Shown here piece after piece: positions 3-55,019 of a stretch of 64,000 bases of DNA. This DNA comes from a virus, in IMG/VR virus record IMGVR_UViG_3300046642_000423, positions 1-64,000 of that record; one strand, 5' to 3'. Position 1 is the stretch's first letter. Every line of letters starts with the position of its first letter. The position numbers and the translations under genes are program-made. The notes beneath the pieces are model-generated. The model saw nothing but the letters and a program-made list of their open reading frames with translations. It was not told the origin of the DNA and ran no database searches.

Positions 3-98
3 GATAATTGGTTTAGTATACGCGAGCCAATGCTAGGAACGACCGGTTTCAGCTACTACAACACGCTTGCTGGAGTCGCAGGACCTTATGGCGGATAA
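3..98 (+). CDS. C-terminal end of an upstream gene (partial)
   Basis: The third frame is open from the window edge and closes at TAA 96-98, giving about 31 residues that end in LAGVAGPYGG. The composition (Ser/Gly/Tyr rich, with FSYYNTLAG) looks like the tail of a virion protein, but no family is recognisable from so little. It overlaps the next start (ATG at 88) by 11 bases, the stop-start packing seen throughout this strand, which supports it being a real reading frame. Confidence 0.5.
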   Translation, partial: DNWFSIREPMLGTTGFSYYNTLAGVAGPYGG

Positions 99-1398
99 CG
101 AACTCACTTTCCAACGCATGGAATTTGCCATGCCCGACGTACCGATCGCACTCGTCCCGCGTCCATACGAAACCGCCTACGGCACGCAGAAGATGATGTC
201 CACCGCCGAGGCGCTGCGCATCGTCGATGAGTTCTCTCTTGCTCCCTCTGATGATTGGCTGGACATTTCCAACTACGCTTCTGCTCTCTACGTCTGCCAG
301 CGCGATCACGAAGCTCTCATCGCAGCCGAGCGTGTTGTATCGCTCGAGCGGAACTCCTCCACTCTGCTCAATCTAGCCATCATTCTCGAGACATTCAGCC
401 GATTCGATGATGCTTTCGTCATCATTAAGGAAGCCTTCGACATGGACCCATGCAACGAATTGGTTGGCAGCACCTATTCCGACGCGCTGATTCGCATGGG
501 ACGATGGGAAGATGGTTGGCCGTTGCATGAGCACTATCACGCCGACTGGGGATGGCTGACGCAGATCATTAAACTGTGGGAAGGACCGCATCAGCCACTC
601 GCAGGCAAGAGCATTCTCGTGCTCGATGGCGGTGGCTTCGGTGACAACCTCATTTTCTTGCGCTGGATGGAGCGCTTGAAGCGGGAGGGCGCGCGCGTCT
701 CATACGTGTGCCCACACCTGCTTGCACCTTTACTTCGTAACAATCCTTATATCGATGAAATCATTCCCAATCATAACTATCAATGGGCGGTCAATCCATC
801 TGACTTTGATTACTTCGTCCCCTTACTTGGTTTAGCGCATCGCTTTGGCGCAACTGCTCCGATGCATCTCTGGCATGGACCGTACGTGTTCGCCGACGCC
901 AACAAATCTCATCTGCGTAGCATGTGCATTGATCGTTCGTCCGGTGTTCCGTTGGTCGGCATCTGCACAAAAGCAGGTGAGGGCGCCTATCCGCGCAAGT
1001 ACAAAACACTCTCGAAGTCCCAAGCACGCCAACTTCTGCAAGCGTCCACGCCTGCCGGTATTCAGTGGGTATCGTTGCAATACGATGAGCCCTTGCCCAC
1101 CGAGGATAAGGTCATCGTGTTAGAACCAGCTATCAAGGATTGGTCAGATACTGCTGCAATCATCGATAATCTCGATCTCGTTATCACCGTAGATACAGGT
1201 GTCGCGCATCTGGCAGGGGCGATGGGCAAGCCTACCTGGCTGATGCTCCCCGGCCGCTCCTCGTGGCCATTTCTACTTAAGCGAATGGACTCACCGTTCT
1301 ATCCCACGATGCGACTGTTCCGCAACGAGTCACTCGGCCTTGAGCACACGGTGAATTCTGTGGTCGCTGCGCTCGAACATTACAAGGTTCACAAATGA
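88..1398 (+). CDS. TPR-containing GT9-like glycosyltransferase
   Basis: 436 residues. The first ~140 residues are helical and TPR-like (paired helices around 65-140). A heptosyltransferase-type (GT9, GT-B) fold follows: a Gly-rich first strand motif VLDGGGFGDN near residues 180-187, and the nucleotide-sugar site VDTGVAHLAGAMGKP near 367-381. This arrangement is known from TPR-glycosyltransferase proteins of environmental bacteria and phages. The acceptor is unknown; the cell surface or the phage's own fibres are both possible. ATG 88 is preferred over TTG 67 because AGGA lies just upstream. It overlaps the next gene by ATGA, as the first member of a four-gene sugar/methyl transfer cassette. 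Confidence 0.8.
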   Translation: MADNELTFQRMEFAMPDVPIALVPRPYETAYGTQKMMSTAEALRIVDEFSLAPSDDWLDISNYASALYVCQRDHEALIAAERVVSLERNSSTLLNLAIILETFSRFDDAFVIIKEAFDMDPCNELVGSTYSDALIRMGRWEDGWPLHEHYHADWGWLTQIIKLWEGPHQPLAGKSILVLDGGGFGDNLIFLRWMERLKREGARVSYVCPHLLAPLLRNNPYIDEIIPNHNYQWAVNPSDFDYFVPLLGLAHRFGATAPMHLWHGPYVFADANKSHLRSMCIDRSSGVPLVGICTKAGEGAYPRKYKTLSKSQARQLLQASTPAGIQWVSLQYDEPLPTEDKVIVLEPAIKDWSDTAAIIDNLDLVITVDTGVAHLAGAMGKPTWLMLPGRSSWPFLLKRMDSPFYPTMRLFRNESLGLEHTVNSVVAALEHYKVHK

Positions 1399-2006
1399 GC
1401 ACAGCCATCACCTTCCCTGATATCTCCGAGTGGTACACGCCCGAGCGGATTGCCGCCGAGGAACCATCATGGCGAGCAGGTGGAGAGCGGAACGCTTATA
1501 AAATCTCAGCACTCCAAGGACAGTTTCCTATCCAGACCATCGTCGAGTGCGGCTGCGGTACAGGGTGGGTGCCGTACTTTCTCAGTCCCACCCATCCATA
1601 CATTGGACTCGATAAGAACGCTCACATGCTTGGCTACGCACGCGTGCGAAATCCTTCTCTTTCCTTTATCCAAGGAGATATTCATAACGCCGCACATCTG
1701 AGCGTATCCGCTGACCTCGTGTGCAGCTTCTCCGTGCTCAAGCATTTCAGTCTAACTGACTGGCCGGTCTGCCTGCGCAACATCCTCTCAGTAGGACGAT
1801 ATGCCCTGTTCACTCAGCACATTCTTCCCAATGATCGCGAGCCGATGGACATAGGTACTGAATGGCACGAAAGCTGGCCAACTCGCAGCATGGTCGAACA
1901 AGTAATAGCAGACGCAGGCCATGAAATCATCGCCGAGGACGCCTCCCATATGAACGAAGCAGTCGGCGCACCAGAAGTCTATCTAACCACAAGGAGAAAA
2001 TCGTGA
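1395..2006 (+). CDS. class I SAM-dependent methyltransferase
   Basis: 203 residues. Motif I ECGCGTG at residues 51-57, an acidic ribose-binding residue in YIGLDKNAHM near 70-79, then QGDIHN for the adenine pocket. This is the Rossmann methyltransferase pattern. Substrate cannot be read from the sequence. Stop-start overlap (ATGA) with the glycosyltransferase upstream and GTGA with the methyltransferase downstream make co-translation likely, so a role in decorating the same glycan is a reasonable inference. Confidence 0.8.
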   Translation: MSTAITFPDISEWYTPERIAAEEPSWRAGGERNAYKISALQGQFPIQTIVECGCGTGWVPYFLSPTHPYIGLDKNAHMLGYARVRNPSLSFIQGDIHNAAHLSVSADLVCSFSVLKHFSLTDWPVCLRNILSVGRYALFTQHILPNDREPMDIGTEWHESWPTRSMVEQVIADAGHEIIAEDASHMNEAVGAPEVYLTTRRKS

Positions 2007-2695
2007 GCGAGACTGCAACCATCCTTGCAGAGTTCGGTTTGATCCCAGCTGGTACCGAAGATACCATTTTCGGTTCAAAGCTGGTTCGTGCAGCGCGTCA
2101 AATTCGTGATCTCTATCCAACTTTGGACTATGACCACCGTCCCGACTCACCGGAATGGGACCTCAAGTTCCCTTACTTGATGACCGAACAGTTCCGCCGG
2201 GGCTATGCGTGCTTCAAGTTTGCTGTCTCGCATGTTATTCAACCACGAACGATCTGTGAAATAGGCGTCGGCGCCGGTACGGCAGCTCGTGCGTTCCTTG
2301 CAGCTTCTCCTGGCGCGCATTACATCGGCATCGATGATGGTTCAAAGGATCGTGGAGACGATGTTCATCTAATCGATTACACGCGCGATCTGATGGAGAA
2401 GAATGGTCAGTCGCATGAGTTCATCTTGCAAGACAGCATGACCTTGCAGTCGGTACCGTGCGTGGATCTGTTCCATGTGGATGGCAATCACTCCTTCAAC
2501 AACGCATTCAACGATACGCGCCTAGCCTGCGAGTCCGGTTCTGAATGGATTCTCATTGACGACTCGCGCGATATGGTCGTGGCAGCCGCTGCGATGATGG
2601 CTGCCTATTCCGTCCGAGGTTCGGTGATGCACCACTGGGCGACCTTTGAGGACACTTGGACCGGATCCATTCTCCTCCATCGGGCGGATCTATGA
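2003..2695 (+). CDS. class I methyltransferase, Methyltransf_24-like
   Basis: 230 residues, GTG start after a good AAGGAG. Motif I CEIGVGAGT at residues 85-93, acidic GIDDGS at 109-114, and VDLFHVDGNHS at 154-164. The last pattern (D-x-hydrophobic-D-G-x-H-S) is typical of the Methyltransf_24/cephalosporin-hydroxylase-like family that commonly sits in polysaccharide clusters. A similar protein is encoded at 54462-55019. Coupled to its neighbours by 4-base overlaps on both sides. Confidence 0.75.
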   Translation: MSETATILAEFGLIPAGTEDTIFGSKLVRAARQIRDLYPTLDYDHRPDSPEWDLKFPYLMTEQFRRGYACFKFAVSHVIQPRTICEIGVGAGTAARAFLAASPGAHYIGIDDGSKDRGDDVHLIDYTRDLMEKNGQSHEFILQDSMTLQSVPCVDLFHVDGNHSFNNAFNDTRLACESGSEWILIDDSRDMVVAAAAMMAAYSVRGSVMHHWATFEDTWTGSILLHRADL

Positions 2696-3639
2696 AGTTC
2701 ATACTTCCCACCGGGATAGGCGACTCTGTATGGGCTCTGCACAAGATAAAAAGCGTGCGCGACCAGCATGATCCATCCGGTCCCATTGATATCTACCTTG
2801 CCGGGACCGACAGTGAAATAGAAACACGCGCGCTGGACTTCCTGCGGCGATTTGACTTTGTCAACTCTGTAGAGATGCGCGATTGGGGATTGCTTGGTGA
2901 TCCCGTGACCACTCCAGACGGTTACTTTAATTACGTCGAGGACGGTATGTATGAGTTCAAGGGAGAGCAGGTCTGTGCGCTAATCCCCAACGCTGCCCTT
3001 GAGCGTGGAATCCGCCTTGAGGATTGGCTGCCGAATCATCAGATCGACTGGGATATCTTCAAACACTTCGATATCACTTACAAGGAACGCGCAGCAGCCG
3101 AGCGAATCGCTTCCGCTGGCCCTTACGCCGTGTTCTATCCAGGTCCGCTACAAGGAAACACAGTCAATGGTCACAATCGCGGGATGATGTGGAAGCCACA
3201 GGAGTGGATTGACCTCGGACGACGCATCCACAATGAATTCGGATTGAATATCGTCGTGGTCGGTGCGCCATACGATTCTTCTTACTATGATCTGTTCATT
3301 AGCACCGCTCTCAATGGCGACGGTTCCTACTGGAACAATCAAATCGGCCATACGAAACTCGGTGAACTGTTCTCCATTACTAATAACGCTGAATTTGTCA
3401 TCTCCTACCAAGCCGGCGTGGGCATCGTATCTACCTACCTGAACACTCCGACGGCAATATTCTGGCGCCCGCGCGGCAATTCCATTTCGCCTGACCGATA
3501 TATCTCATTCGAGGAGTCGATGGCATCGGCATGGGTGCCTCCCAGCATTCTATTTCAGGAAACTCATCTTCCACTAATCTACGGCAGACATAAAGTGGAC
3601 GATATAATGAGCGAAATTACTCAGCGAGGGTGGGCTTGA
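2692..3639 (+). CDS. glycosyltransferase, GT9-like
   Basis: 315 residues from ATG 2692, which overlaps the preceding TGA. N-terminus MKFILPTGIGDSVWALHK matches the first strand/loop of heptosyltransferase-like GT-B enzymes (G-x-G-D). The C-terminal half has FVISYQAGVGIVSTYL and a nearby Pro-Thr-Ala segment, equivalent to the DTG-H-A sugar-nucleotide loop, with YQAG in place of the usual DTG. Catalysis may therefore differ from LPS heptosyltransferases. Last gene of the cassette; the signal-peptide fibre gene begins at the next base. Confidence 0.65.
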   Translation: MKFILPTGIGDSVWALHKIKSVRDQHDPSGPIDIYLAGTDSEIETRALDFLRRFDFVNSVEMRDWGLLGDPVTTPDGYFNYVEDGMYEFKGEQVCALIPNAALERGIRLEDWLPNHQIDWDIFKHFDITYKERAAAERIASAGPYAVFYPGPLQGNTVNGHNRGMMWKPQEWIDLGRRIHNEFGLNIVVVGAPYDSSYYDLFISTALNGDGSYWNNQIGHTKLGELFSITNNAEFVISYQAGVGIVSTYLNTPTAIFWRPRGNSISPDRYISFEESMASAWVPPSILFQETHLPLIYGRHKVDDIMSEITQRGWA

Positions 3640-6600
3640 ATGCGAAGATTCCTACATCTATTGTGGTTGCTGCCACTGCTGCTATTCTCCGCAGCGCCTG
3701 CGCACGCGACCAACGAAGCCGCGCATGGCTGGTGCGAGGATGGCAATCAACAAGTCATCCTGTCCGGTCTGATGTCCACCACGCTCGCGCAGGAATCGTT
3801 CCCACAATGCACCATCTACGTCTATAACCATGGTGGCGGGCTCGCAACGATCTACTCTGATGAGAACAACACTCCGCTTGCTAATCCATTCACCGCGAAC
3901 ACGAATGGCCAGTGGATCTTCTACGCAAATGATGGGCGATATGACGTCAATATGTCTGGCGGGACTCCGATCGCATTCCCCGGCCCAGTAACGATATCCG
4001 ATATTACTCTGGGAGGATCTGGAGGCGGGTCAGGCGTAGGCCGACGAGTCTGCATTATGCGTGCAGGTTCCGATGATGGATCTGCCCTTACTAACGCTCA
4101 GATTGCACCGCAGACCATTCAATGCGAAATCACAGATGATGCGACAGTGATTGAGGTAGATGTGACCGCTGATGGCGGCACGCCCACAACGATCGCCTCG
4201 CGTATTCGTGGGGGAGCATCCGTTGACCTTGTATCCTCCACGCTTACGACTGGCGCAGTAGGAGCCCTGGCCTGTTCCAACGCAACAGGCAGTTTGGGCA
4301 TTGATGGAACAACCACCTGCGCGATGACTCTCCAGAACACGACCCTCGCAGCAGGTGATTATCTCTACACGCGCACGGCGACCGCAGGTGGGGTTGCCAA
4401 AGTATTCACTGTTTCTGTTGTATTCACGCAGGCCGGCGGTGGTGGAGGTGGTGGAGGCACAGGACTGACCAGTATTGGCCTGACGATGCCATCCTGGCTC
4501 ACCGTTGCGAATTCTCCATTAACCTCGAATGGTACACTCGCCGTGACGCCGACAGCTGGCCAGTCTTCACACCTCGTCATTGGCACCTGCAATGCCGCTA
4601 CGACCTTTGCACCGTGCTTACTTGTAGCGGCTGATCTGCCCAACACAGCCGTATCTCCAGGTTCCTACACGAATGCGAATATTACTGTGGATGCGCAAGG
4701 ACGACTTACCGCTGCATCAAACGGCGCCAGTGGAGGTATAGGCACTCCCGGCATGCCAACTACAAGTGTCCAGTTCAACTGTGCAGGCGCGTTCTGTGGC
4801 GATGCTGCAATGATTTGGGATAACACAGCGAAGTCCTTGAATCTTTCAAATGGTTCTCTCGGTGCATCCGAAGCCACCTTAGATTTATCTGGGAGTGGTG
4901 CAGGGACTTCCTTTCAAGGATTCCCTGCAATTTTAGCGGTGCGTGCTCCAGATGAGAATGGTCCTTGGGGGCAGGTATGGACGAATGAAGTATACAAAGC
5001 GTCTACTGGTGGAGCCGCGGGACAATTTTGGGAATTATTCATAAACGATGCTGGAGATACATTCTTTCAATGGGGTGGTGGCACCGGACCAGGAGTAAGC
5101 GATCAAGGTATTCAATTTTATCATAACGGCGAAGTAGAAACGGGTGGACCGCTTCAGATAGACGACCTTGTAAACGCAGCAAACGGTGCTTTTGGCATAG
5201 CGTTAGATCCTAATGGAATTGGAGCATTTACGTTTTCTGAGGCTTTTGATTCAGTGCATGGCGTAACGCCAACTCTGGGCATTCCTTCTTATGCGACTGA
5301 CCCAAACACTGCTGGATGGGGGGCAGGCCAAAAGGGGCGCGAATGGTTTAACTCCACTGGCAACGTCGTAAAATATTGGAACGGGTCATCGGTGCAGACA
5401 CTCGGAACTGGCGCGAGCACGCCTTGCACCTCTACTGCGCTCTCCATCCAATATAACCTCGCTGGAGCCTTCGCCTGCACACCGATGACCTATACGGTCG
5501 GCTCAACCACGCTTGCGACTAATGCAATCACGGTCGATGCGAGCTTAGCGACCTCGGTTAAGCTGCCTTATCTGTGGATCGTCAATTCTTCTGCTCCGTC
5601 TGCTATCTCGGGCAACTCGATCTGCTACGCGACGACAACGAATATCAACTGCTCGATCAACGGTGGTGGATTCAACGCGATCAATATCGGAGTTACTCCA
5701 GTTACTCTCGGTGGGACGGGCTTGGCGACGCTCACTGCGCATGCACTTATCGCTGGAAATGGAACCTCAGCCGTAACGGTACTCGGAACAGGAACCCTTA
5801 ATGACTGTCTGCTGTCTGCTGGTGCTGGCGCTGACCCAGCATTCGGAGCTTGCCCAGGCAGCGGTACGATCACCTCGTTCAGTGCGGGCAATCTCTCACC
5901 ATTATTCACCTCGAGTGTGGCGACCGCGACCACGACTCCAGCGCTTACCTTCGCATTGACCAGCGCGGCAGGCGGTACGGTGTTCGGACGCTCAGCCGGG
6001 ACCACCGGAGCTCCAGCCTACACCTCGACTCCCGTGCTGGGTATCCCGACCAGCGTAATTGGCACACTGGGATTCGCGGGGAACACTTCCGGCACGGCAA
6101 CGATCACTCCGCAGGCAGCTGCTGGGACGCCGAACCTGGTCCTGCCAATCTTGTCCGGCACGTTCGCGGTCAGCGCGACCGCTCCAGTCACATTAAACAC
6201 GACCACCGGCGACATCGGCTGCGCGACCTGCTTCCGCACAGATGCCAATGGGACCTCGGGCGCGTTCGTCTACACTTTCGCAGCCGCTACCTCCATCGTT
6301 CCTATGCGCGTAGCGGCCGGGGCCACCGTGGCAGCGAATGGACAAATGGCTTTCGATACGACCAACAATAATCTCCATTTCTATAACGGCAACGATCGAG
6401 TCGTGGCGGTATTCGACGGCACCGCGCAGGTGAATGGCGGCTGCTTGCAAGCTACTGTGGCCGCTTCCAAGGTGGAAGTGACCAATACCGGCGTGAATTG
6501 CAACGGCGCGGGCAGCGTGGCGTTCAGTGCTCTCACCAGTTCAACCAACACGACTGCAACGATGCACGTCGGCACGGGTGCGACACTTGATACATCCGGT

Positions 6601-7758
6601 TCGGGCGTATTGAATGCCAACGAAATCAGTGCGACCACAATCCCAGCAACCTCTACCGCCGATCAGGTTCTCCAGACGACTGCATCTGCGACTGGCGCAT
6701 GGAAATCTGTTCCTCTTTGCACAGACACTGGCGGACAGCACTTGAACTATGACACCTCCACGCATACCTGGTCCTGCGGAACGTCCGGCACATCTGGTCC
6801 ATCTGCGCTCTCCAGCATCACGGCGATGACCACCAATGCAACCATCAACAATGGTGACAATCCTCTGCGTTGGAATTGGGATGGAACGACCTCTGGGCGG
6901 GTAGGATTCCTTGTCTCTGAGAACATCGCATCGACCTCAGCCGGCACGCCAGTCTTATTTGCCGTCCGAGCCATCGCATCCTCAACCATGAATCCCTTTG
7001 AGGCGTCCTTCAATGGCTTGGGCGTGCGCATGAATACTTCCGGTGTGTTGCAAGCAGTCAGCACAGGCGGCATCGACTGGCCAGCGTTGCTCAACTACCC
7101 TTCTGCTTGTGTCAACCAGTTCATCCGTGCGCTGTCCGACACGCCGACCTGCGCTACGGTTAGTCTGACCGCCGATGTGTCAGGCATTCTCCCGCAAGCA
7201 AACGGTGGAACGAACACTGCGAACGCGCCGATCAAGCGTGCGTACTTCCAATTCGCAGGAAACAACGCGACCACGGTAGGCGCCGGCTGGGATCTCCCAG
7301 TGACCACTCCAATGGTCGCCACCTCCAAGATTGACGGAACGAATGGTACCGTTCAGGGCACGCTCAACGCCGCCGATGGCCAGATCGCCTACGCAACCTG
7401 GATCATCCCAGACGACTTCACCTCATTTAATTCGGCCAAGATTCGCTTTACTACGACCGATACCACGAACGGACACACGATCATCTTCAATATCGCGACA
7501 GCCTGTACCAACCCGAACGCTACTGTTACCGACACGCCGAATTATAACGTCGCCAACGCCTTCACCACCGTGACGATCGCTGGTGGGGCGGTGGCGAACG
7601 CGGCTTATTCGACCACAGCGGGCACAGTGACCGCGACAGGCTGCGCGGCAGGCTATATACTGCACATGAAATTGACGCGCGCGACGGATACTGCAACGGA
7701 TACAGCGGTTGCGCTCACCGGAGGACTCTTGTTGGCCTACAATGGATCATACCAGTGA
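3640..7758 (+). CDS. giant fibre/appendage protein with Sec signal peptide
   Basis: 1372 residues. Residues 1-23 form a textbook Sec signal peptide: MRR, a Leu-rich core and an AHA cleavage site before T24. The rest is Thr/Ser/Gly/Ala rich and beta-structured. It has a poly-Gly linker near residue 267-273, repeated GGTG segments (LGGTGLATLTAHALIAGNGT near 690-710; ANGGTN near 1190) and a SAGNLSPLFTSSVAT-type segment near 750 that is common in environmental phage fibre proteins. Tail fibre or virion appendage is the likely role, but a cytoplasmically assembled fibre would not need a signal peptide, so export is a real alternative. It ends by overlapping the next signal-peptide protein. Confidence 0.7.
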   Translation: MRRFLHLLWLLPLLLFSAAPAHATNEAAHGWCEDGNQQVILSGLMSTTLAQESFPQCTIYVYNHGGGLATIYSDENNTPLANPFTANTNGQWIFYANDGRYDVNMSGGTPIAFPGPVTISDITLGGSGGGSGVGRRVCIMRAGSDDGSALTNAQIAPQTIQCEITDDATVIEVDVTADGGTPTTIASRIRGGASVDLVSSTLTTGAVGALACSNATGSLGIDGTTTCAMTLQNTTLAAGDYLYTRTATAGGVAKVFTVSVVFTQAGGGGGGGGTGLTSIGLTMPSWLTVANSPLTSNGTLAVTPTAGQSSHLVIGTCNAATTFAPCLLVAADLPNTAVSPGSYTNANITVDAQGRLTAASNGASGGIGTPGMPTTSVQFNCAGAFCGDAAMIWDNTAKSLNLSNGSLGASEATLDLSGSGAGTSFQGFPAILAVRAPDENGPWGQVWTNEVYKASTGGAAGQFWELFINDAGDTFFQWGGGTGPGVSDQGIQFYHNGEVETGGPLQIDDLVNAANGAFGIALDPNGIGAFTFSEAFDSVHGVTPTLGIPSYATDPNTAGWGAGQKGREWFNSTGNVVKYWNGSSVQTLGTGASTPCTSTALSIQYNLAGAFACTPMTYTVGSTTLATNAITVDASLATSVKLPYLWIVNSSAPSAISGNSICYATTTNINCSINGGGFNAINIGVTPVTLGGTGLATLTAHALIAGNGTSAVTVLGTGTLNDCLLSAGAGADPAFGACPGSGTITSFSAGNLSPLFTSSVATATTTPALTFALTSAAGGTVFGRSAGTTGAPAYTSTPVLGIPTSVIGTLGFAGNTSGTATITPQAAAGTPNLVLPILSGTFAVSATAPVTLNTTTGDIGCATCFRTDANGTSGAFVYTFAAATSIVPMRVAAGATVAANGQMAFDTTNNNLHFYNGNDRVVAVFDGTAQVNGGCLQATVAASKVEVTNTGVNCNGAGSVAFSALTSSTNTTATMHVGTGATLDTSGSGVLNANEISATTIPATSTADQVLQTTASATGAWKSVPLCTDTGGQHLNYDTSTHTWSCGTSGTSGPSALSSITAMTTNATINNGDNPLRWNWDGTTSGRVGFLVSENIASTSAGTPVLFAVRAIASSTMNPFEASFNGLGVRMNTSGVLQAVSTGGIDWPALLNYPSACVNQFIRALSDTPTCATVSLTADVSGILPQANGGTNTANAPIKRAYFQFAGNNATTVGAGWDLPVTTPMVATSKIDGTNGTVQGTLNAADGQIAYATWIIPDDFTSFNSAKIRFTTTDTTNGHTIIFNIATACTNPNATVTDTPNYNVANAFTTVTIAGGAVANAAYSTTAGTVTATGCAAGYILHMKLTRATDTATDTAVALTGGLLLAYNGSYQ

Positions 7759-10334: not shown

Positions 10335-11696
10335 TTGCCGACCTACACATACGCGACCCTCACCTTTGCTCGGCAGCAGCTCGCCGACCGCTTGTACGAT
10401 GCTGGCATGGTCTTTTGGTCGCAGAGCGAGTTGACACTATACATTCAAGAGGCATTACGGACGTGGAACGCTCTAACTGCATTCTGGCGTGGGGACTTCA
10501 TCTTTCCATCGCAGCCGGGAGTTACCTGGTACGACCTTACATCTACAGTCGATATGCCCAACACACTGCGGCCTCTGACAATTACTGACCGCGACCTCTA
10601 CACAATCATCCAGTATCACCTGCTCGAGCCCATTGCGTGGGATCCATGGACGGGCGCATCGCTGCAATTCACTCAGGACGATCTGCTTGAGGCGGTGCAG
10701 CGGCGCCGGGATGAGATATTGTCAGCAACAGGGTGCACGCAGACACGTTCGACGGTCCCCGCGGTCGCTGGGCGCATTACCCTGAACGATAAGGTCATCG
10801 ACATTCGCCGGATGGCATATCTGCCGAACCTGCCTGGTACACCGTCCACGGTATGGGCTGACGATGATTGGGCTGAGCAGTCCTTCGAGCCGTTCTATAC
10901 GATTACTCCCACGGGAGTGTCGCGGCCATCGACCTACCTGCAATCTGCCGAGCCTCCGATCTCATTCGATACGAACCAGCCTCCTGCATATGCCGGCAAC
11001 TATGAGTTGCTGACCGTGAACGCTGGCGATGCGCTCAATCCAGCCATTCCGACGATCATGCCGATCGCCGACGATTGGACGCATGTCATCAAGTGGGGAG
11101 CATTGGCAGACCTGTTCTCGCGGGAATCGAACGCTAAGGATCTCCTACGGGCAGCCTACTGTGAGCAACGCTACCAGATGGGCGTTAAGCTGCTCTCCGA
11201 CGCTCCTGCGCTGCTTTGGATGCGAGTTGATAAGGTACCCCTGCAAATCGATTCTGTGCGCTCTGCGGACCTCTACAACGCCACCTGGCAGACTCTAGCC
11301 GCTGCTAAGCCATCTACCTGTCTGCACTCCGGCCTGAACCTTGTCGCGCTCACTCCAGCCGCGGATACCCCCTCCGGTGGACCTTATTCACTGACTGCCA
11401 TGGTGGTGATGAACGCGCCTGTGCCTGTCAATAATACTGACTTTATTCAACTTTCGCGCAACGACCTCGATGCCGTTATCGACTACGCGCAACACCTCGC
11501 CGCGCTCAAGATGGGCGGGGCTGAGTTCACCGCGACCATTCCACTGTTCCAGCGATTCATGGCTCAGGCCGCTCTCTACAATTCCAAGCTGCTCGAGCTG
11601 GGTGAGTTCACCTCCACCATTCTTGGCCTGTCACAACGCGAGAATCAGATGAATCCAGTCGCCCAGCCAATGGAATCGTTGCGAGGCGGTGAGTAA
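10335..11696 (+). CDS. putative adaptor/neck virion protein
   Basis: 453 residues, TTG start with AGAGGA upstream. Soluble, mixed alpha/beta, rich in Trp/Tyr (TLYIQEALRTWNALTAFWRGDF near residues 30-50). It overlaps by TAATG a 1347-residue nozzle-like protein. Size, position after the fibre genes and order (adaptor then nozzle) resemble the neck of short-tailed phages. No specific family is certain from reading alone. Confidence 0.55.
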   Translation: MPTYTYATLTFARQQLADRLYDAGMVFWSQSELTLYIQEALRTWNALTAFWRGDFIFPSQPGVTWYDLTSTVDMPNTLRPLTITDRDLYTIIQYHLLEPIAWDPWTGASLQFTQDDLLEAVQRRRDEILSATGCTQTRSTVPAVAGRITLNDKVIDIRRMAYLPNLPGTPSTVWADDDWAEQSFEPFYTITPTGVSRPSTYLQSAEPPISFDTNQPPAYAGNYELLTVNAGDALNPAIPTIMPIADDWTHVIKWGALADLFSRESNAKDLLRAAYCEQRYQMGVKLLSDAPALLWMRVDKVPLQIDSVRSADLYNATWQTLAAAKPSTCLHSGLNLVALTPAADTPSGGPYSLTAMVVMNAPVPVNNTDFIQLSRNDLDAVIDYAQHLAALKMGGAEFTATIPLFQRFMAQAALYNSKLLELGEFTSTILGLSQRENQMNPVAQPMESLRGGE

Positions 11697-14600
11697 TGGC
11701 TGACTTCATGCGGCCAAAAGACGGGTTCCGCTATCAGTTCGGTGGTATCAATATCAACTCTGCGCCGGATGCCATCCCACCTACAAAGTATCCCGTTGCC
11801 CAGAACATCCGTTCTTACTCAGGTAATTCTGTCGAGGGTCGCCCAGGCCAGGCGCAAAAGTTCATCACTGGCGGCGCTGCGGTCACGGACCTATGCTCCT
11901 ACACGACGCTCAACTCCGATGAGATCCCACGATACCTTGCACGCGACGTCAACGACGCCATCTGGCTTGATACGGCTGCGCAGGTAGGCATGCTCGCACC
12001 TGGAGGGCTTGGCGCGACCATGATTCCCGTTCGCCCAGGCGCATCTCCTGTTCCCTACCTGTATATGGCGAATGGTGCTGACTATCAGAAGTTCTCCGCG
12101 CCTACAGGTGGAGTAGTCGTACAGTCCAAGGTCGGTATTGCCGAGCCCCAGACGGCACCGGACGCAGCTCCCTATATCGACGAGGTCGCATACTTCGCTG
12201 ATACTGACAATGTGAGTTGGGCAGCCGCCGGGACAGCTGGAGCAATATCCGCTGGGACGCGCGTCACTGAGCCAATCACATCGGTTCTTACTGATCCTGC
12301 CAACGCTAATTTATATAGCCTTGCGGTGACGCTATCCTATCAGCGTCTGATGGCGTTCACCGTCACCGAACTTCCAACGCTGTTGGCATTCGTGCAGGAC
12401 GTTTATGCAGGTTTCGATGCCATTGCCATCAACTCGATCTATTACTTCTCAGGAACGACAGGTCGCTGCGTCATCGTTCCAGCCAACCTTACGACTGGCC
12501 CAGGGGATTCCGGCACCTCTATCAACACGCAGAACATCATGGCAGCGCTGCGCCGAGGGTCCATCATTCAAGTTGGCACAGAAGGTTGTTTAGTGTGGAG
12601 CGTTACGTCCGGCCCTGACGGATCCATCTCCATTGAGACATCAACGAATCTCACACATACCACTGCGGATAAGTTGGCAGGAGTGTCGAGTATATCGGTA
12701 CTGTCTCCACAAACGCTCATTGTTGGCCAGACGATCAACTGTGCGGATATCTCTTATCAAGTCACTGCTGGCGTGGGAAGCGTCTCGGAGACAATCGCCA
12801 ATCCATTCGGCGCAGGGGGAACCTTCGAGCGCCGGCAGCCGTCAGCGTTCATTTCTCCAACTCCTGGGGCAACCAATGGATTCATAAATATAGCGAATGC
12901 TTACGATGGCAATCCAAACACGTATGCCGAAGGCGTTAGCGTTCCCATCGCCACGGTGGGCACTCAGTGGACTGGATTCGCTGCGGGTAGTGGTCCTTAC
13001 AATGTTCTCTATTTGCATGTTCTTATGTCGGTGGTGATGGTTCATCCGGCGATGGAAAATGATGGAGTCGCCAATATATCCTATTCGCTGGATGGTGGAG
13101 CTACATTTCTCACTCCACCTTCGCTGATCTTTACTAATGATGTTCCCAAGCAGGATTTCATCATCTCTCTACCGCCTGGCCAGGACCTGACGCAGCTGCG
13201 CGTGATTGCCGCGGGAGGCTTCACAGGACCAAACGTCTCGAGCGTTACTGTGGATGTCTTTGAAATATTCACCGAGGGTTCGCTGTCAGGTGGAACCATA
13301 TTTTCGTTTCAGCCGGACGATTATCTGTCGATCGGACTCAACGTAGATAATCCTGCCAATCTGACGGAGATGAAGATCGTCATCGACGTTGGCGATGGCA
13401 GTTTCACGAAGGATTATTTCTACTATACCGTGCGTCCATCTGACCTGACGCAGAGCGTTGCAAATACCGCGTCGCAGCTCGCCAATGCACAGACCGTCCA
13501 GCAGCGAGCCATCATTGATGCATCCACGCCTACCATAGACGGCGGAGCGCTCAGCACGGATTCAGGCGCGCAGCTGGTCCCCGGTTCCACGCAATGGTCA
13601 CAGGTTGTCTTTCCTATATCCGCGCTTACCCGTGTAGGCAACGATCAGACGAAATCTCTGCGTACGATGAACGCGACGCAGATTCTATGGAATGCTGCCG
13701 GGACCATCAACGTATTACAGGCAGCAGGGATCGTGTTTGGTACAGGCCAGCCAGATGTCGGGGATATTGGCGCGCCATTGCAGTATCGCGTGCGGCCGCG
13801 GTCTTCGGTGACGGGCGTGCGTGGGAATCCCTCTCCGGTATCGCGTTATGGGATTAACCCTCGCCGCCAACAATGCATCGTCATTCTACCCTCGGCTTCC
13901 TATGATCCACAGATCGATACTTGGGACATCTTCCGCTATGGTGGTGCGGTTACATCATTCCGATATATTGGTTCAACGCCCAGTACGAACACTCAGTTTG
14001 TTGATAACTATGACGATGCGGCCGCAGAGGCTGGGGAAGCGCTGGACTTCGATAACCTCGAGCCATGGCCGAGCATCGACCTGCCGAACAATGGCAGCGC
14101 CATCTCCGTCACGGGAACCACGGCGATTGTCGTTCCTTCCAATCCATCGAACAATATTTTGAGCTATCTCCCTGGCACGCTAGTTCGTATCGGCAGCTTG
14201 AACGCCTACACACTCTATAATCGTCCGACGTCCCTGGCTGGTGGACAGTACCTATTGCAGTTCGCAGAGAACGCAGGCTCGAGCACTGGATTGCTCTACA
14301 ACATCCAAGAGCCGATCATCGCCAATCAGAAGCTGCCATATATGTTTGGGCAGGATGCATCAGGAACTGTATTCGCTTGCGGGGATCCGCTGCGGCTGGG
14401 AACACTCTATTTCTCGAAGAACTATATTCCTGACTCAGCTCCCGATAAGTACAACATTGAAATCACGCCTCCATCTGAACCACTGCTCGGCGGAGAGGTT
14501 ATCGATGGACTGGCATTCGTCGGATCACCAGAGCGTTGGTGGGCGTTGTATCCGCAGCCTAACAATGAAGCTCAGCGATACGCGGTTGTGCAGCAGCCAT

Positions 14601-15739
14601 TTACGCGGGGGCTCGCCGCACCACTGGGGCATTGCACCGATGGACAATCAATCTTCTGGTGGGCGAAGGATTCGATTCAATCTTCCACGAAGGCATCGTT
14701 GACGGATGGGGATCTCTACAATCTGTTCCCGCATGATGGCGTCCCAGGTAAGGACATCATCTACAACGGCGTGACGCTGCACGCACCGGACTACTCTCGC
14801 GCTGGGACTTTCCGGCTGGCGTATGCGAACTCTTATCTCTACGCAACCTATCAGGACTCAGAGGGAATATATCGCCAGCTTGTGCTGGACATGCCGCAGA
14901 TGGCTTGGTCGGTTGATGAGTACACGCCAAAGGTGACGGCGTTCTATCACCCACCGCAGCCTGCGGGGACATTGCTCACCTCTACCATTCGATACGATGA
15001 GTTGGTCATGGCGAACGTCGGTGGGGTCATCTCGAAGCAACAATCAAACACGAATGACCTTGGTGGAGGAATCGTCTGCAAGATCGCAGCGTTCGAGTTT
15101 GATGGCGGGGACTTGCGGGCGCCCAAGCAATGGGGCGATTTCTTCCTTGATCTGACACCAGAAGCTGCGGTTACAGCTACTCCACTGTCGTTAGGACTCG
15201 CGGTAGCCGCACCGACCGTTGTTCCAGCCAGTGCTGCCCGCGTGCGTAGCCCTGTAAGCGTTGGCGGCGTGGTGGTCAGTGATTTCCTTGGAATGATGCT
15301 CGCCTGGACGGATGATTATGGAAGCCAGTCCGGCCCTACAGAGGTCAATACTTGGCATCCCAGCTTTGTCATTCAGCCTGCCAGCACGATCGGCTGGGCG
15401 ACGTTCGGCACGTCCTACGGTCAGTCTGGGTATATGCATATCCGCGAGATGGTAATTGCGTACGTGTCCAGCGCGGATATCACGCTGACGATTGTTAGTT
15501 ACGATGGGCAGTCACCTCAGATTGTCACGCTGCCATCCACGGGTGGGCTGTACAAGAAGGTATTGTTCCCGCTCACCGCCAATAAAGGGCAGCTCTATAA
15601 GTTCCAAGCGACCTGCGCCGCGACATTCCAAATATTCGAGGATGACTCAGAAGTGAGAGTAGGCGCGTGGGGACGTACCGACGCCTATGCGTTGATGAAG
15701 AGACTGGGAGGCCCAAATGTCGCCAACGCCCCAATCTAG
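11696..15739 (+). CDS. very large tail nozzle/hub-like structural protein
   Basis: 1347 residues. The N-terminus (FRYQFGGININSAPDAIPP ... NIRSYSGNSVEGRPG) has the pattern of phage nozzle/stabilisation proteins of the T7 gp12 and P22 gp10 type: 'my genes are hung on a list of fields, here is a Gly-Gly-Ile start'. The rest is beta-rich with many aromatic repeats and no membrane segments. At nearly twice the usual family length it may carry added receptor-binding or decoration domains (residues ~380-560 look like an inserted jelly-roll). Assignment rests on the N-terminus and context. Confidence 0.55.
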   Translation: MADFMRPKDGFRYQFGGININSAPDAIPPTKYPVAQNIRSYSGNSVEGRPGQAQKFITGGAAVTDLCSYTTLNSDEIPRYLARDVNDAIWLDTAAQVGMLAPGGLGATMIPVRPGASPVPYLYMANGADYQKFSAPTGGVVVQSKVGIAEPQTAPDAAPYIDEVAYFADTDNVSWAAAGTAGAISAGTRVTEPITSVLTDPANANLYSLAVTLSYQRLMAFTVTELPTLLAFVQDVYAGFDAIAINSIYYFSGTTGRCVIVPANLTTGPGDSGTSINTQNIMAALRRGSIIQVGTEGCLVWSVTSGPDGSISIETSTNLTHTTADKLAGVSSISVLSPQTLIVGQTINCADISYQVTAGVGSVSETIANPFGAGGTFERRQPSAFISPTPGATNGFINIANAYDGNPNTYAEGVSVPIATVGTQWTGFAAGSGPYNVLYLHVLMSVVMVHPAMENDGVANISYSLDGGATFLTPPSLIFTNDVPKQDFIISLPPGQDLTQLRVIAAGGFTGPNVSSVTVDVFEIFTEGSLSGGTIFSFQPDDYLSIGLNVDNPANLTEMKIVIDVGDGSFTKDYFYYTVRPSDLTQSVANTASQLANAQTVQQRAIIDASTPTIDGGALSTDSGAQLVPGSTQWSQVVFPISALTRVGNDQTKSLRTMNATQILWNAAGTINVLQAAGIVFGTGQPDVGDIGAPLQYRVRPRSSVTGVRGNPSPVSRYGINPRRQQCIVILPSASYDPQIDTWDIFRYGGAVTSFRYIGSTPSTNTQFVDNYDDAAAEAGEALDFDNLEPWPSIDLPNNGSAISVTGTTAIVVPSNPSNNILSYLPGTLVRIGSLNAYTLYNRPTSLAGGQYLLQFAENAGSSTGLLYNIQEPIIANQKLPYMFGQDASGTVFACGDPLRLGTLYFSKNYIPDSAPDKYNIEITPPSEPLLGGEVIDGLAFVGSPERWWALYPQPNNEAQRYAVVQQPFTRGLAAPLGHCTDGQSIFWWAKDSIQSSTKASLTDGDLYNLFPHDGVPGKDIIYNGVTLHAPDYSRAGTFRLAYANSYLYATYQDSEGIYRQLVLDMPQMAWSVDEYTPKVTAFYHPPQPAGTLLTSTIRYDELVMANVGGVISKQQSNTNDLGGGIVCKIAAFEFDGGDLRAPKQWGDFFLDLTPEAAVTATPLSLGLAVAAPTVVPASAARVRSPVSVGGVVVSDFLGMMLAWTDDYGSQSGPTEVNTWHPSFVIQPASTIGWATFGTSYGQSGYMHIREMVIAYVSSADITLTIVSYDGQSPQIVTLPSTGGLYKKVLFPLTANKGQLYKFQATCAATFQIFEDDSEVRVGAWGRTDAYALMKRLGGPNVANAPI

Positions 15740-50565: not shown

Positions 50566-50838
50566 ATGAATATCGTCTATCCGCAGCCGAAAGAGATTCG
50601 CACGATCGAAACGGTCACCACGGGTCCCGCTGGACCGATAGGACCTGCCGGCGATCGTGGTGAACCTGGAATGCCAGGAGTCAGAGGTATATCGGGCAAG
50701 GATGGCGAGCGCGGCCCGCGCGGATTCACTGGCGATCAGGGCCTTCCCGGCAAGGATGCTCCCGTCCACATCCAATACATGACCTATCTGCTCCTGATCG
50801 TTCAACTTCTTGAAATTGTTTACTTGGCGACTCGCTAA
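50566..50838 (+). CDS. collagen-like protein with C-terminal membrane helix
   Basis: 90 residues. Residues ~20-66 are Gly-X-Y triplets ([19 protein letters not shown] and on), followed by a hydrophobic helix ([19 protein letters not shown], residues 72-90). No signal peptide at the N-terminus. A trimeric collagen rod anchored in a membrane (or in a hydrophobic virion pocket) by its C-terminus is an odd design for a phage protein. TAATG overlap with the next gene. Confidence 0.7.
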
Positions 50839-51275
50839 TGGCCAACTCCATCCAGAAGAATCCCAATGGCCCTCTCTGGCCGCTCGGTTTTATTGCCGTC
50901 GTTACTCCCGGCACGCCCGTCTCGTTCATGTCTCTGGTAGATCCCACGAACGACAACGCGCCCGACGCTCCCACCTCCACAACTTCCGCCGAATACACTC
51001 CACGCTGTCAAGAGTTCATCATCACCGCTCAGAAACCCGGCGCAGCGCATGGCACGCAACTCAATACCGGCAACGTGTACATCCTCATTGCACCGACGCC
51101 CACCGGTTCAGGCAACCGCGACGACATGGGCTCGCTCATCCTACCCATGGTCCCCGGCGCGGTTTTCTTCCTCTCCTCCGCCTTCATCAACCTGAACGTA
51201 TGGTCGCCCTACAAACTCCTCGTAGACGCCGACAACGCCGGAGATGGCGTGCTCGTAACCATGGTTATCCAGTAA
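50838..51275 (+). CDS. beta-rich virion protein, copy B of a paralogous pair
   Basis: 145 residues. Shares [20 protein letters not shown] and C-terminal [15 protein letters not shown] with the protein at 16056-16502. Placed between two collagen-like proteins, whereas copy A precedes a signal-peptide Ig-like protein. Probably a decoration or fibre-joint protein. Confidence 0.7.
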
Positions 51276-51279
51276 TCCA

Positions 51280-52722
51280 ATGGGCATAACCGACTACATC
51301 GCACCGGGCGGCAGCGGCGGCGGTGGAACGCAAGGTCCCCAGGGACCGCAGGGACCGCAGGGTACGAATGGTGCCGCTGGCGCGCAAGGACCGCAAGGCG
51401 TACAGGGAGTCCAAGGAGCAACTGGATCGACTGGTTCAACTGGACCTCAAGGGGCGCAAGGGTCCACGGGAGCCCAGGGTTCTACGGGCGCTCAGGGCGC
51501 AACGGGATCAACTGGCGCGCAGGGTGCTCAAGGTAGTACTGGCGCGCAGGGCGCAACGGGCGCTCAAGGTGCGACTGGTTCACAGGGGGCCACCGGAGCC
51601 CAAGGCGCTACAGGGGTGCAAGGTGCAACCGGAGCGCAAGGCAGCACAGGCGCTCAGGGCGTACAAGGCGCACAGGGCAGCCAAGGTTCTACCGGAGGAG
51701 TCTCGCTCCTCTATACCTTCAGCACTACAACCACCACACCAACTTCCAATAACGGTCAGATCCGCTTCAACAACGCAACTTTTGGCTCGATCACGCACGT
51801 CTATATCACCCGCCAAGATCGCAACACAAACGATCTCACTGCCACACTCGCGCTCATTGTAAACGGCACCACACTCGAAACATTCCAAGAATCCACGCCC
51901 GCGACTTTCGCAACTTTCAGCGTGACCGCAGCCTCGCAGCAAACCAACTACTACGATTACACTGTCACACCACTCTCGGGCGCGATTCTCACAAACAATG
52001 CGAACTCTGCCGCCAGCTTCTCCGCTACCGGTCCACAAGGAGCACAGGGAGCGACCGGCGCACAGGGAGTTCAAGGTGTGCAAGGTGTGCAGGGAGCAAC
52101 CGGTGCTCAGGGTGCGCAGGGGGCCCAAGGTGTGCAAGGACCACAAGCCGCCGGTAACGCAGGCGACACAAAAATCTCCGCCATGTCTTCTGGCTTACCG
52201 GGCACTCTTTCCGATCAACTCGTCATCGCGCGCAGCGGTTCCAACTTCAATCTTCCATCGGCGGCATTCTTCGTGCAAGGCGCTCAGTTCTCCGCCACCG
52301 CCACTACTCCCACTTCCATTCAAGGCTGCCAAACCACGGCCGTGCTCGCTGCATCTGCGACCTACCATTTCAATGCCATCATTGGCGTGCAAGGTGTGGG
52401 CATCCAAGGCTACCAGTGGGGATTCCAATGCACGCAATCCGGCGCCCACCAAGGCAGCGCCATGAACGTAAAAGTCAGCATGGGACCGCAAGGAACGGTT
52501 GCCGCCGCCACAGGATTCCAATCCTACTTAGCTGTTGGCTTTGGCATCCAAGGCGCGCAGGGCGGTGGTGCGGTCGGCAATAGCTGGATGGAATGTGATG
52601 GTGTCTTCACGACCAATACCGTCGCGGGCAGTGTATTCGGTATCCAGATCCAAGGGAAACAAGCCACCGTTACGCCCGCCATCCTCGCCAATTCCTATCT
52701 CAAAGTGGAGCGTATCGCATGA
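51280..52722 (+). CDS. collagen-like tail fibre protein
   Basis: 480 residues. Gly-X-Y arrays at ~13-138 ([10 protein letters not shown] ... GATGAQG) and ~250-292, separated by a beta domain ([18 protein letters not shown] near 167-185). The C-terminal ~150 residues are a beta-rich head ([15 protein letters not shown] and on). Trimeric collagen-like fibre of the kind found in phage receptor-binding fibres. No signal peptide. Repeats could be substrates for the nearby glycosyltransferases. Confidence 0.75.
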
Positions 52723-52805
52723 CCACCAACACAATTCAAAAGCAGATCCGTGAACTGAAACGTATCTTCCGCGAAGCGTTCAACGCCATGTTCAAAGGAA
52801 TGTAA
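52719..52805 (+). CDS. 28-residue coupled micro-protein
   Basis: ATGA overlap with the fibre gene. Sequence is one amphipathic basic helix ([20 protein letters not shown]), regular enough to be a coiled coil or peptide that binds a partner. Far below calling limits; supported by the overlap and composition only. Confidence 0.4.
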
Positions 52806-52819
52806 GGAGAGAACCAAAG

Positions 52820-53185
52820 ATGGCAAAGACAACTCTATTCTCCCGCACCTCGCAAACTCTCGCCATCGGCTCATTCGCTTCTCCCAATCTCGTTCTCTCA
52901 GCCAATCCCTTCGACATCATCCGCATGACCTTCACTCCTACTGGAACGGTCGCTCCCAACTTCACCATGAAGGTAGGATTCTACCGTCTCGATTCCGGTA
53001 TCTTCGTGCCGATCGCATCCGTCACCGCCGATGCTGGATTCGCCACTGGAGGACCGCAATATCTCCAGTTCGGCGCGCAGCCTGTCGTGGGACAGACCAT
53101 ACAAGCGCAGCTTGTCATCGCTGGAAGCGCAGTCACCACCGCTATTCTCATCGAGGGTGGGTTAAGTTCAGACTTCCCCAGATAA
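52820..53185 (+). CDS. beta-rich virion protein, unknown
   Basis: 121 residues, AAGGAG before ATG. Alternating hydrophobic/polar strands with Thr/Ala/Gly (FTMKVGFYRLDSGIFVPIASV). Jelly-roll-like; possible head decoration or fibre knob. Adjacent to other virion genes. Confidence 0.6.
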   Translation: MAKTTLFSRTSQTLAIGSFASPNLVLSANPFDIIRMTFTPTGTVAPNFTMKVGFYRLDSGIFVPIASVTADAGFATGGPQYLQFGAQPVVGQTIQAQLVIAGSAVTTAILIEGGLSSDFPR

Positions 53186-53188
53186 CAA

Positions 53189-54472
53189 ATGGCCACCAAG
53201 CTCTTTATGAAACAGTTCCAGTCCTCCGCCAATCTGACCAATCAATTTGCGTCCAATCCAACTTACAGCTATGCCAGCGTGACCGCTCAAGTTCTCACCT
53301 TCATCACTTCCATTACCAATACCGTCGCATCCGGCACAAAAATTCAATGTACCAAGACGGCCGGCGGAGCCATCCTCCAGTTTATTTCTCCTCCCTTAGC
53401 CGCAGCCGTCACCATCTCAGGCACCATTACCAACAACTGCTGGGCACTGGAATCGAACAACCTCGCCAATGCCGGAATGCGTTGCATTCACTCTCGTTGG
53501 TCAGACGGAACCGTCATCTCTGATACTTCTAAGGGCGTTGAACTCACCACTTCCGCCGCAGTTCAGAACTGGACTGATGCTGCCCCCACCTCCACCATCA
53601 TCGGCGTCAACGACCGCATTGTAATCACCTGGTATGTCACCAACGTCGGCACGATGGGTGGCAGCCAAACCGTCACCCTCGACTATGGCGGCAAGACCGC
53701 AGCCGCTGACGGTGATACCTGGGTGCAATTCACCGAGAACATAACCTTCCAGACCGAAGCGGAGCTGGTTCAGTTTGCCAATCAAGTATTCACTTCTGTC
53801 AGCGGAAACACAGTCGCTGCATCTCTCCCCGGAATCAGCGCTGCGGGAAATCTCCTTGTGGTCAGTGGAGGCTTATCCGTCCAATCCGAAACGATGACCA
53901 TCGCCGATGATAAAGTGGACACCTTCACCGGATTTCCCGGCAATCCCACCAACTGGGGCTCTGTACAGCGTGAATACTTCTGGTACGCGCAAAACATCAT
54001 CGGAGGATCAGCCACCACTGTCACCTTAACCAAATCCGCATCGAACACCAACGGTCGCGGCGTATCCGTCGCAGAATATGGAGGCATGGCCACCAGCGCA
54101 TTCGATGCTTCTCCATCCGCGCCTAACACTGGAACAGGTACAGCCATTACCAGTAACCTGACTGCGGTTACAGCCGTTCCTTGTGAACTCATTGTCTGCA
54201 TTGAAGACGACTTAGGTGTCAGCGTCAGTGCGGGAACCAACTTTGTGAAACGACAGACCAACGCAGAAGGGCAATGCATGTTCGATCGTAGCGTGCAAGT
54301 GGGAGCTGCCTACCAAGGACTCGCAACCTTAACCACATCTGTCGCCTGGATTATGCACGTTGCCACCTTTAAATGGGCAGTTCAGCCAGCCGCAGGTCAC
54401 ATTCAAATGGAAAACAGCCTCACTGGTGGTATCGCACAGGAATCCACCGGAGACATTTCACTTGAGTACTAG
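53189..54472 (+). CDS. beta-sandwich fibre/adhesin-like protein
   Basis: 427 residues. Contains a module (GNLLVVSGGLSVQSETMTIADD ... YFWYAQNIIGGSATTVTLT ... VSVAEYGGM) also found, diverged, twice in the signal-peptide protein at 16499-18097 (SGSMLTVTRG ..., SEYRPTDLTL). No signal peptide here. Such modules are frequent in environmental phage fibres. Confidence 0.65.
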   Translation: MATKLFMKQFQSSANLTNQFASNPTYSYASVTAQVLTFITSITNTVASGTKIQCTKTAGGAILQFISPPLAAAVTISGTITNNCWALESNNLANAGMRCIHSRWSDGTVISDTSKGVELTTSAAVQNWTDAAPTSTIIGVNDRIVITWYVTNVGTMGGSQTVTLDYGGKTAAADGDTWVQFTENITFQTEAELVQFANQVFTSVSGNTVAASLPGISAAGNLLVVSGGLSVQSETMTIADDKVDTFTGFPGNPTNWGSVQREYFWYAQNIIGGSATTVTLTKSASNTNGRGVSVAEYGGMATSAFDASPSAPNTGTGTAITSNLTAVTAVPCELIVCIEDDLGVSVSAGTNFVKRQTNAEGQCMFDRSVQVGAAYQGLATLTTSVAWIMHVATFKWAVQPAAGHIQMENSLTGGIAQESTGDISLEY

Positions 54473-55019
54473 CATCCCTGGATGGATGAGCGAAAAAGAA
54501 CTCGCCTGGCTGGCTGACACTGCCAAGGGATATTTCTCTATTGTGGAAGTCGGCTCATGGCGTGGCCGCACAACGAAAGTTCTTGCCGACAACACGCGCG
54601 GGCATATCTTCGCCGTGGATACCTGGGACGACAATGCGATCGGATATGAAGACAGCTGGACCGTCGCTGACCGTGAACTCGAACTCTACTCGCGTCCTGA
54701 CTGGCTCTTGCAAGAGTTCCAATACAATTTGCGCGACCATCTCGGCGGCAAGCTCCTAGCGCTGCGCATGACTTCCAAGGCCGCAGCCAGCCTGCTCAAA
54801 TCGAACATGCTAACCTTCGACATGATCTTTCTCGATGCAGACCACTCTTACAACTCTGTGTGTGAGGACATTTTCACATGGCGACCTCTCCTGCGCCCGA
54901 CCGGACTCCTTTGTGGCCACGACTTCAACGATCCACGTTGCCCAGAAGTAGCCGCCGCGGTGCGCAGCCTTATCCCCGATGCACGAGTAGCCTGCGATAC
55001 GATTTGGTGTGCTCAGTGA
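54462..55019 (+). CDS. SAM methyltransferase, Methyltransf_24-like
   Basis: 185 residues from TTG 54462 (ATG 54486 is an alternative). Motif I VEVGSWRGRTT near 29-39, AVDTWDD near 52-58, then FDMIFLDADHSYNSVCEDI near 120-138. The D-A-D-H-S signature is shared with the methyltransferase at 2003. Overlaps the fibre gene and is coupled by GTGA to the glycosyltransferase fusion, so it probably acts on the same glycan. Confidence 0.7.
   Translation: MSTSIPGWMSEKELAWLADTAKGYFSIVEVGSWRGRTTKVLADNTRGHIFAVDTWDDNAIGYEDSWTVADRELELYSRPDWLLQEFQYNLRDHLGGKLLALRMTSKAAASLLKSNMLTFDMIFLDADHSYNSVCEDIFTWRPLLRPTGLLCGHDFNDPRCPEVAAAVRSLIPDARVACDTIWCAQ

Follow-up and report, generated by a model that had tools for sequence, protein, structure and literature searches.

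What does a phage modify when it carries glycosyltransferase and methyltransferase genes among its structural genes? The question is raised by the first four genes of the stretch of DNA analysed here, a window of 64,000 nt taken from the start (bases 1-64000) of a virus record of 65,030 nt. An earlier note, made from the letters of the window, had suggested Thr/Ser-rich fibres, collagen repeats or a modified host surface as substrates. Here, we place the genes in their genome, compare them with those of related phages, and weigh the candidate substrates against one another.

Position of the cassette in the genome

The earlier note had described two GT9-like enzymes and two methyltransferases that overlap right before a signal-peptide fibre, and we find the same arrangement. 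The genes are P0001 (88-1398), P0002 (1395-2006), P0003 (2003-2695) and P0004 (2692-3639), all on the plus strand; successive genes overlap by ATGA, GTGA and ATGA, and a TGA|ATG junction leads from the last of them into the fibre ORF (3640-7758, plus strand). The first and last 127 bases of the record are identical (1-127 and 64904-65030, a perfect direct repeat) and the junction of its ends is spanned at 100% identity by three contigs from other metagenomes. Hence, the record is circular in assembly, with 64,903 bp, and the two ends of the window are adjacent. The cassette follows directly 3' of the gene for a connector-like protein of 328 aa (64015-65001 of the record), and the stop codon of that gene falls shortly after the start of P0001. 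A phage glycan cassette within a structural operon is well supported.

The circular form changes how the rest of the repertoire is placed. The GT2 gene that the earlier note put at the other side of the phage, at 55 kb, does exist, but its end at 56788 lies about 8.2 kb upstream of the cassette when measured across the junction, rather than on a far side. Its protein carries two GT2 stretches (ORF 54878-56788), so that together with P0001 and P0004 the claim of at least four glycosyltransferase domains stands. The likely start of this GT2-GT2 protein, which ends in a truncated methyltransferase tail, is the GTG at 55016 in a GTGA overlap and not the ATG at 54878 (55016-56788, plus strand). It belongs to a second, 6.3-kb block (50810-56788) between the terminase and the next gene, with a collagen fibre and a Methyltransf_24-type methyltransferase (54360-55019, plus strand; 60.7 bits). 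In the other relatives measured the gap between terminase and next gene is 482 nt or less, and the collagen-fibre/GT2 block occurs at this site only in the present phage; nor was GT2 found in the seven P0004-bearing relatives searched whole. We could thus rule out the collagen fibre as a general partner of the cassette, and collagen repeats lose ground as its substrate.

The enzymes

P0001 starts the cassette. It passes the curated Pfam cut-off for GT9 (PF01075, 25.2 bits against 22), as a domain that follows a TPR arm at about residues 39-159. Sixteen of 18 homologues match PF01075 at E 0.001 or better, and in the alignment of all 18 the GD and D-T/S-x-x-A-H-L (DTGxxH-type) residues are invariant or nearly so. 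The AlphaFold model (pLDDT 85.5) matches the folds of TPR-GT-B protein transferases (bacterial OGT, SPINDLY) and of GT9 enzymes, with low TM-scores over the full length that indicate a shared architecture and imply no close kinship. The catalytic family of O-GlcNAc transferases, GT41, is absent from the Pfam results for P0001 up to E 1.

Model and fold matches fit the layout of FlmG-type protein glycosyltransferases, with a TPR arm and a GT-B domain. FlmG is the flagellin O-glycosyltransferase of Caulobacter, in which the TPR part binds flagellin and the isolated GT part does not (PMC7591256). Both proteins are soluble and combine an N-terminal TPR arm with a C-terminal GT-B transferase, a likeness of architecture; P0001 differs in being a phage gene with a GT9-like catalytic domain. 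FlmG works in the cytoplasm, where its TPR arm chooses a structural protein whose assembly takes place later and outside (PMC7591256), and we propose that P0001 might act likewise.

The two central genes encode SAM methyltransferases with intact glycine-rich motifs. P0002 is a class I enzyme (Methyltransf_25, 45.2 bits) with homologues of about 31% identity in the islands of L020, L027 and L043, and P0003 is of the Methyltransf_24 type (26.3 bits, at the cut-off), with homologues of 35-48% identity in seven of the eight P0004 islands.

P0004, the last gene, is a divergent relative of GT9. Taken alone it falls below the cut-off of PF01075 (14.1 bits against 22), and we thus call it GT9-like; within its family eight of nine members match GT9 at E 0.1 or better, with a best E of 1.2e-5. 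The best PDB match of its model (pLDDT 82.9) is WaaF (1psw; E 1e-9, query TM-score 0.60), followed by other GT9 structures, WaaC and TibC. P0004 keeps G10-D11, and in all nine aligned family members SYQxGVG replaces the DTGxxH donor-site motif of GT9. TibC is an autotransporter heptosyltransferase of GT9 fold that glycosylates a protein (PMC4358343). It shares this fold with P0004 and with the catalytic domain of P0001, and so provides a precedent for protein acceptors; yet it lacks a TPR arm and forms a dodecamer with bound iron, and the donor-site motif of P0004 is a different one.

P0004 shares 56-61% identity with its homologues in nine other islands, a conservation about equal to that of the connector. 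Across independent phages the P0001 and P0004 families show 34-61% identity, and non-synonymous change, where computable, amounts to about 0.16-0.2 of synonymous change. P0004 is, judging by its sequences, under purifying selection. Its family was found here almost only in phages. A genome scan with P0004 gave a single relative, on a contig of a Gemmataceae MAG (L060, 2597-4552). There a GT9 domain is fused to a P0004-like domain (43% identity), 3' of a methyltransferase-like gene and with a phage-tail-like ORF on the opposite strand. A further TPR-GT9 gene occurs in the environmental podovirus MW202512 (L012, 7407-10840), soon after the major capsid gene and accompanied by an FkbM methyltransferase and a GalT-like gene.

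A variable site between connector and fibre

We gathered about 25 related phages through the major capsid protein, the connector and the tail protein. They keep the order terminase, small gene, portal, head genes, connector and fibre, and differ in what lies between the last two. Nine of them (L015, G006, G008, G010, G013, G021, G022, G023 and G025) have a gap close to 0. It measures about 0.5 kb in two (G003, L029) and 1.9 kb in three others (G009, G011, L019); the phages that carry P0004 have 3.5-7.3 kb there. In Tunturi 1, a cultured acidobacterial podovirus, 8 nt separate connector from fibre, and at least 10 relatives, Tunturi 1 among them, have an empty slot.

Islands with P0004 are constant at their ends and variable inside. 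A TPR-GT9 gene stands at the start and P0004 at the end, usually directly 5' of the fibre gene, and in most islands the P0004 stop and the fibre start adjoin or overlap. The interior varies between C-methyltransferases, Methyltransf_24 relatives, an NAD-epimerase, a cupin resembling mannose-6-phosphate isomerase, and endonucleases. This is a hypervariable glycosyltransferase island, i.e. a variable block of about 0 to 7.3 kb that keeps to one site among the structural genes and adjoins the fibre. HNH-endonuclease-like genes lie in or beside the slot in L029 (7619-8098), L033 (7933-8385) and L022 (18936-19400), and they are a possible means of island exchange.

Tunturi 1 and 2 (PMC11924767) encode homologues, only 31-38% identical, of the terminase, portal, head protein, connector, fibre N-terminus and tail protein, and their order is the same. 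The clade is one of soil podoviruses, and from this identity we take their hosts to be probably Acidobacteriota. Tunturi 1 differs in its empty slot and in a tail protein that lacks the insert discussed below. Virion glycosylation by phages and hypervariable islands rich in glycosyltransferases are already known. In the open-licence papers searched we did not find a compact island with constant end genes in acidobacterial podoviruses, nor a P0004 family almost confined to phages, nor a co-occurring insert in the tail protein.

Candidate substrates

We take late, cytoplasmic glycosylation of virion proteins to be the best explanation, with the four genes as the compact version of an island for glycosylation, exchangeable and seated in the late (head-tail) operon, and we hold the two together to be somewhat more probable than their contrary. 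All enzymes of the island would work on virion protein in the cytoplasm, before its assembly. P0001 would dock the acceptor by its TPR arm and attach the first sugar by its GT9 domain, P0004 would attach a further sugar from a different donor, and P0002 and P0003 would methylate the sugars. The acceptor region would most likely be an extra domain in a tail protein, with the adjacent fibre as second choice. The outcome would be a strain-specific coat at the tail tip, altering adsorption or shielding the tail. By a simple hydropathy count almost all of the island proteins are free of predicted membrane segments, and the genome gave no match to the GtrA flippase (PF04138; controls were detected), to PMT_2, or to PF00303, the thymidylate synthase family, to which base hydroxymethylases belong. 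These observations fit a stepwise glycosylation in the cytoplasm, and the lack of GtrA and PMT_2 led us to reject Gtr and PMT routes. The C-methyltransferase, NAD-epimerase and cupin isomerase genes of the sister islands, which are sugar-modifying, also count for glycosylation. In mycobacteriophages, which are unrelated to the present phage, capsid and tail tube proteins are glycosylated by phage-encoded functions (Freeman 2023, as cited in PMC12619734).

One might speculate that the cassette enzymes modify phage DNA, since many phage glycosyltransferases hypermodify it (Pyle 2024, as cited in PMC12619734). But a base hydroxymethylase of the thymidylate synthase type has no match in this genome, and both the GT9 and TPR architecture and the position in the late operon are ill-suited to such a role. 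We rejected DNA modification on the PF00303 result and find it barely credible.

The main alternative is that the island modifies surface glycans of the host, masking receptors or excluding other phages. GT9 enzymes classically build the LPS core, and islands with glycosyltransferases in pelagimyophages were read as host-surface modification (PMC7029224). The latter are T4-like phages, and their host recognition cluster, with a mean of 44.6 kb and mainly GT8 enzymes, was read as modifying the host O-chain. The cluster resembles our island in being hypervariable and in placing glycosyltransferases among structural and fibre genes; the present island, at most about 7.3 kb long, differs in size and in its constant end genes. 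Against action on the host surface speak the near absence of membrane segments and of GtrA and PMT_2, which make this substrate of the earlier note less likely, and also the late head-tail operon position and the TPR arm. Moreover, the GT9-type proteins score far below the NCBIfam equivalog cut-offs for LPS heptosyltransferases I-III (32.2 against 185.3 bits, and 24.8 against 134.6). Hence, we judge this alternative quite improbable.

If virion proteins are the substrate, which one would carry the sugars? The fibre at 3640 is the immediate neighbour of the cassette, to which P0004 is joined in most islands as described above. It might be the main acceptor and receive its sugars in the cytoplasm, ahead of assembly or export, with the tail-protein insert unrelated. 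However, its conserved N-terminus is the same in relatives with and without the island. So is its Ser/Thr fraction (about 0.19-0.27, one short truncated sequence aside), which deprives Ser/Thr richness of any value as evidence for an acceptor. Short stretches aside, no part of the fibre stood out in the phyletic scan presented below. Thus, of the earlier proposal of Thr/Ser-rich fibres, the adjacent fibre stays as a possible acceptor and the argument from composition falls; that it is the main one seems to us unlikely. Sec-like signal peptides stand at the N-terminus of ORFs starting at 3640, 7755, 16499, 23731 and 26065 in the late region, and that of the 3640 fibre is kept across the clade, Tunturi 1 gp12 included. 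Such peptides are odd on virion proteins assembled in the cytoplasm.

We scanned 15 genomes for protein stretches that accompany the island and are missing from genomes that lack it. Beyond the island genes the standout was the N-terminal half of a 1347-aa tail protein (11696-15739, plus strand); a few small accessory genes also showed 7:1 patterns in the same scan. The homologue of this protein in Tunturi 1 and 2 is annotated as a virion structural protein. The 1347-aa protein has no informative Pfam, PHROG or PDB match, and we call it nozzle-like by inference only. In an alignment of 25 relatives, two conserved anchors (residues 152-542) lie 389-441 aa apart in each of the eight P0004-bearing genomes, i.e. 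there is an extra domain of 140-180 aa, and 231-266 aa apart in 15 of the 17 genomes without P0004. The two exceptions, G021 and G022, lack the island and carry a different, PA14-like insert (in G021 the PA14 match is sub-threshold only), whereas G011, with a TPR-GT9 gene and no P0004, has no insert. In the present phage the extra domain spans residues 372-529 (12809-13282, plus strand); it has no Pfam match and no Ser/Thr enrichment, and a YDGNPNTY-type motif, picked out by eye, is the basis for calling inserts of this type discoidin-like.

How far does this pattern tie the insert to the island? Fisher's test for P0004 and the insert gives 4e-5 ignoring kinship. On the core tree island state changes six times (at least four changes are forced by well supported branches), and the independent phylogenetic contrasts for the insert, nearly always concordant, number two to four, too few for the association to reach significance. 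Common ancestry, or recombination of a neighbouring block, might be all that links the two, with no functional tie and with the acceptor elsewhere. Linkage is close, with about 3.4-8 kb between the start of the fibre and the tail protein in genomes that carry P0004, contrasts are few, and other small genes have similar phyletic patterns. Yet, P0004 is a single family, whereas the phages that bear it have inserts of at least two kinds, placed at three positions, and island-bearing phages are not one clade on the core tree. We give this linkage almost an even chance of being the whole story.

The insert is still, on the comparison of genomes, our best lead for the acceptor, and we treat it as a candidate. 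In its boldest form, cytoplasmic glycosylation of virion proteins would then involve a two-part exchangeable module of acidobacterial podoviruses, in which a soluble island running from TPR-GT9 to P0004 decorates an inserted domain of the tail protein, with the type of glycan and the acceptor domain varying jointly and determining the specificity of adsorption. This is a tentative proposal, more doubtful than not. If true, tailed phages would swap genetically both a sugar coat on the tail tip and the domain that carries it, besides changing fibre sequence. The comparison gives a concrete candidate acceptor and a new GT9-like family, and the relatives with and without the island, cultured Tunturi 1 included, form a natural set for comparing virion glycans. 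Near its C-terminus (residues 1124-1325) the tail protein has a further optional stretch, of about 100 aa, where the anchors lie about 300 or 204 aa apart; P0004-bearing genomes always have the short form.
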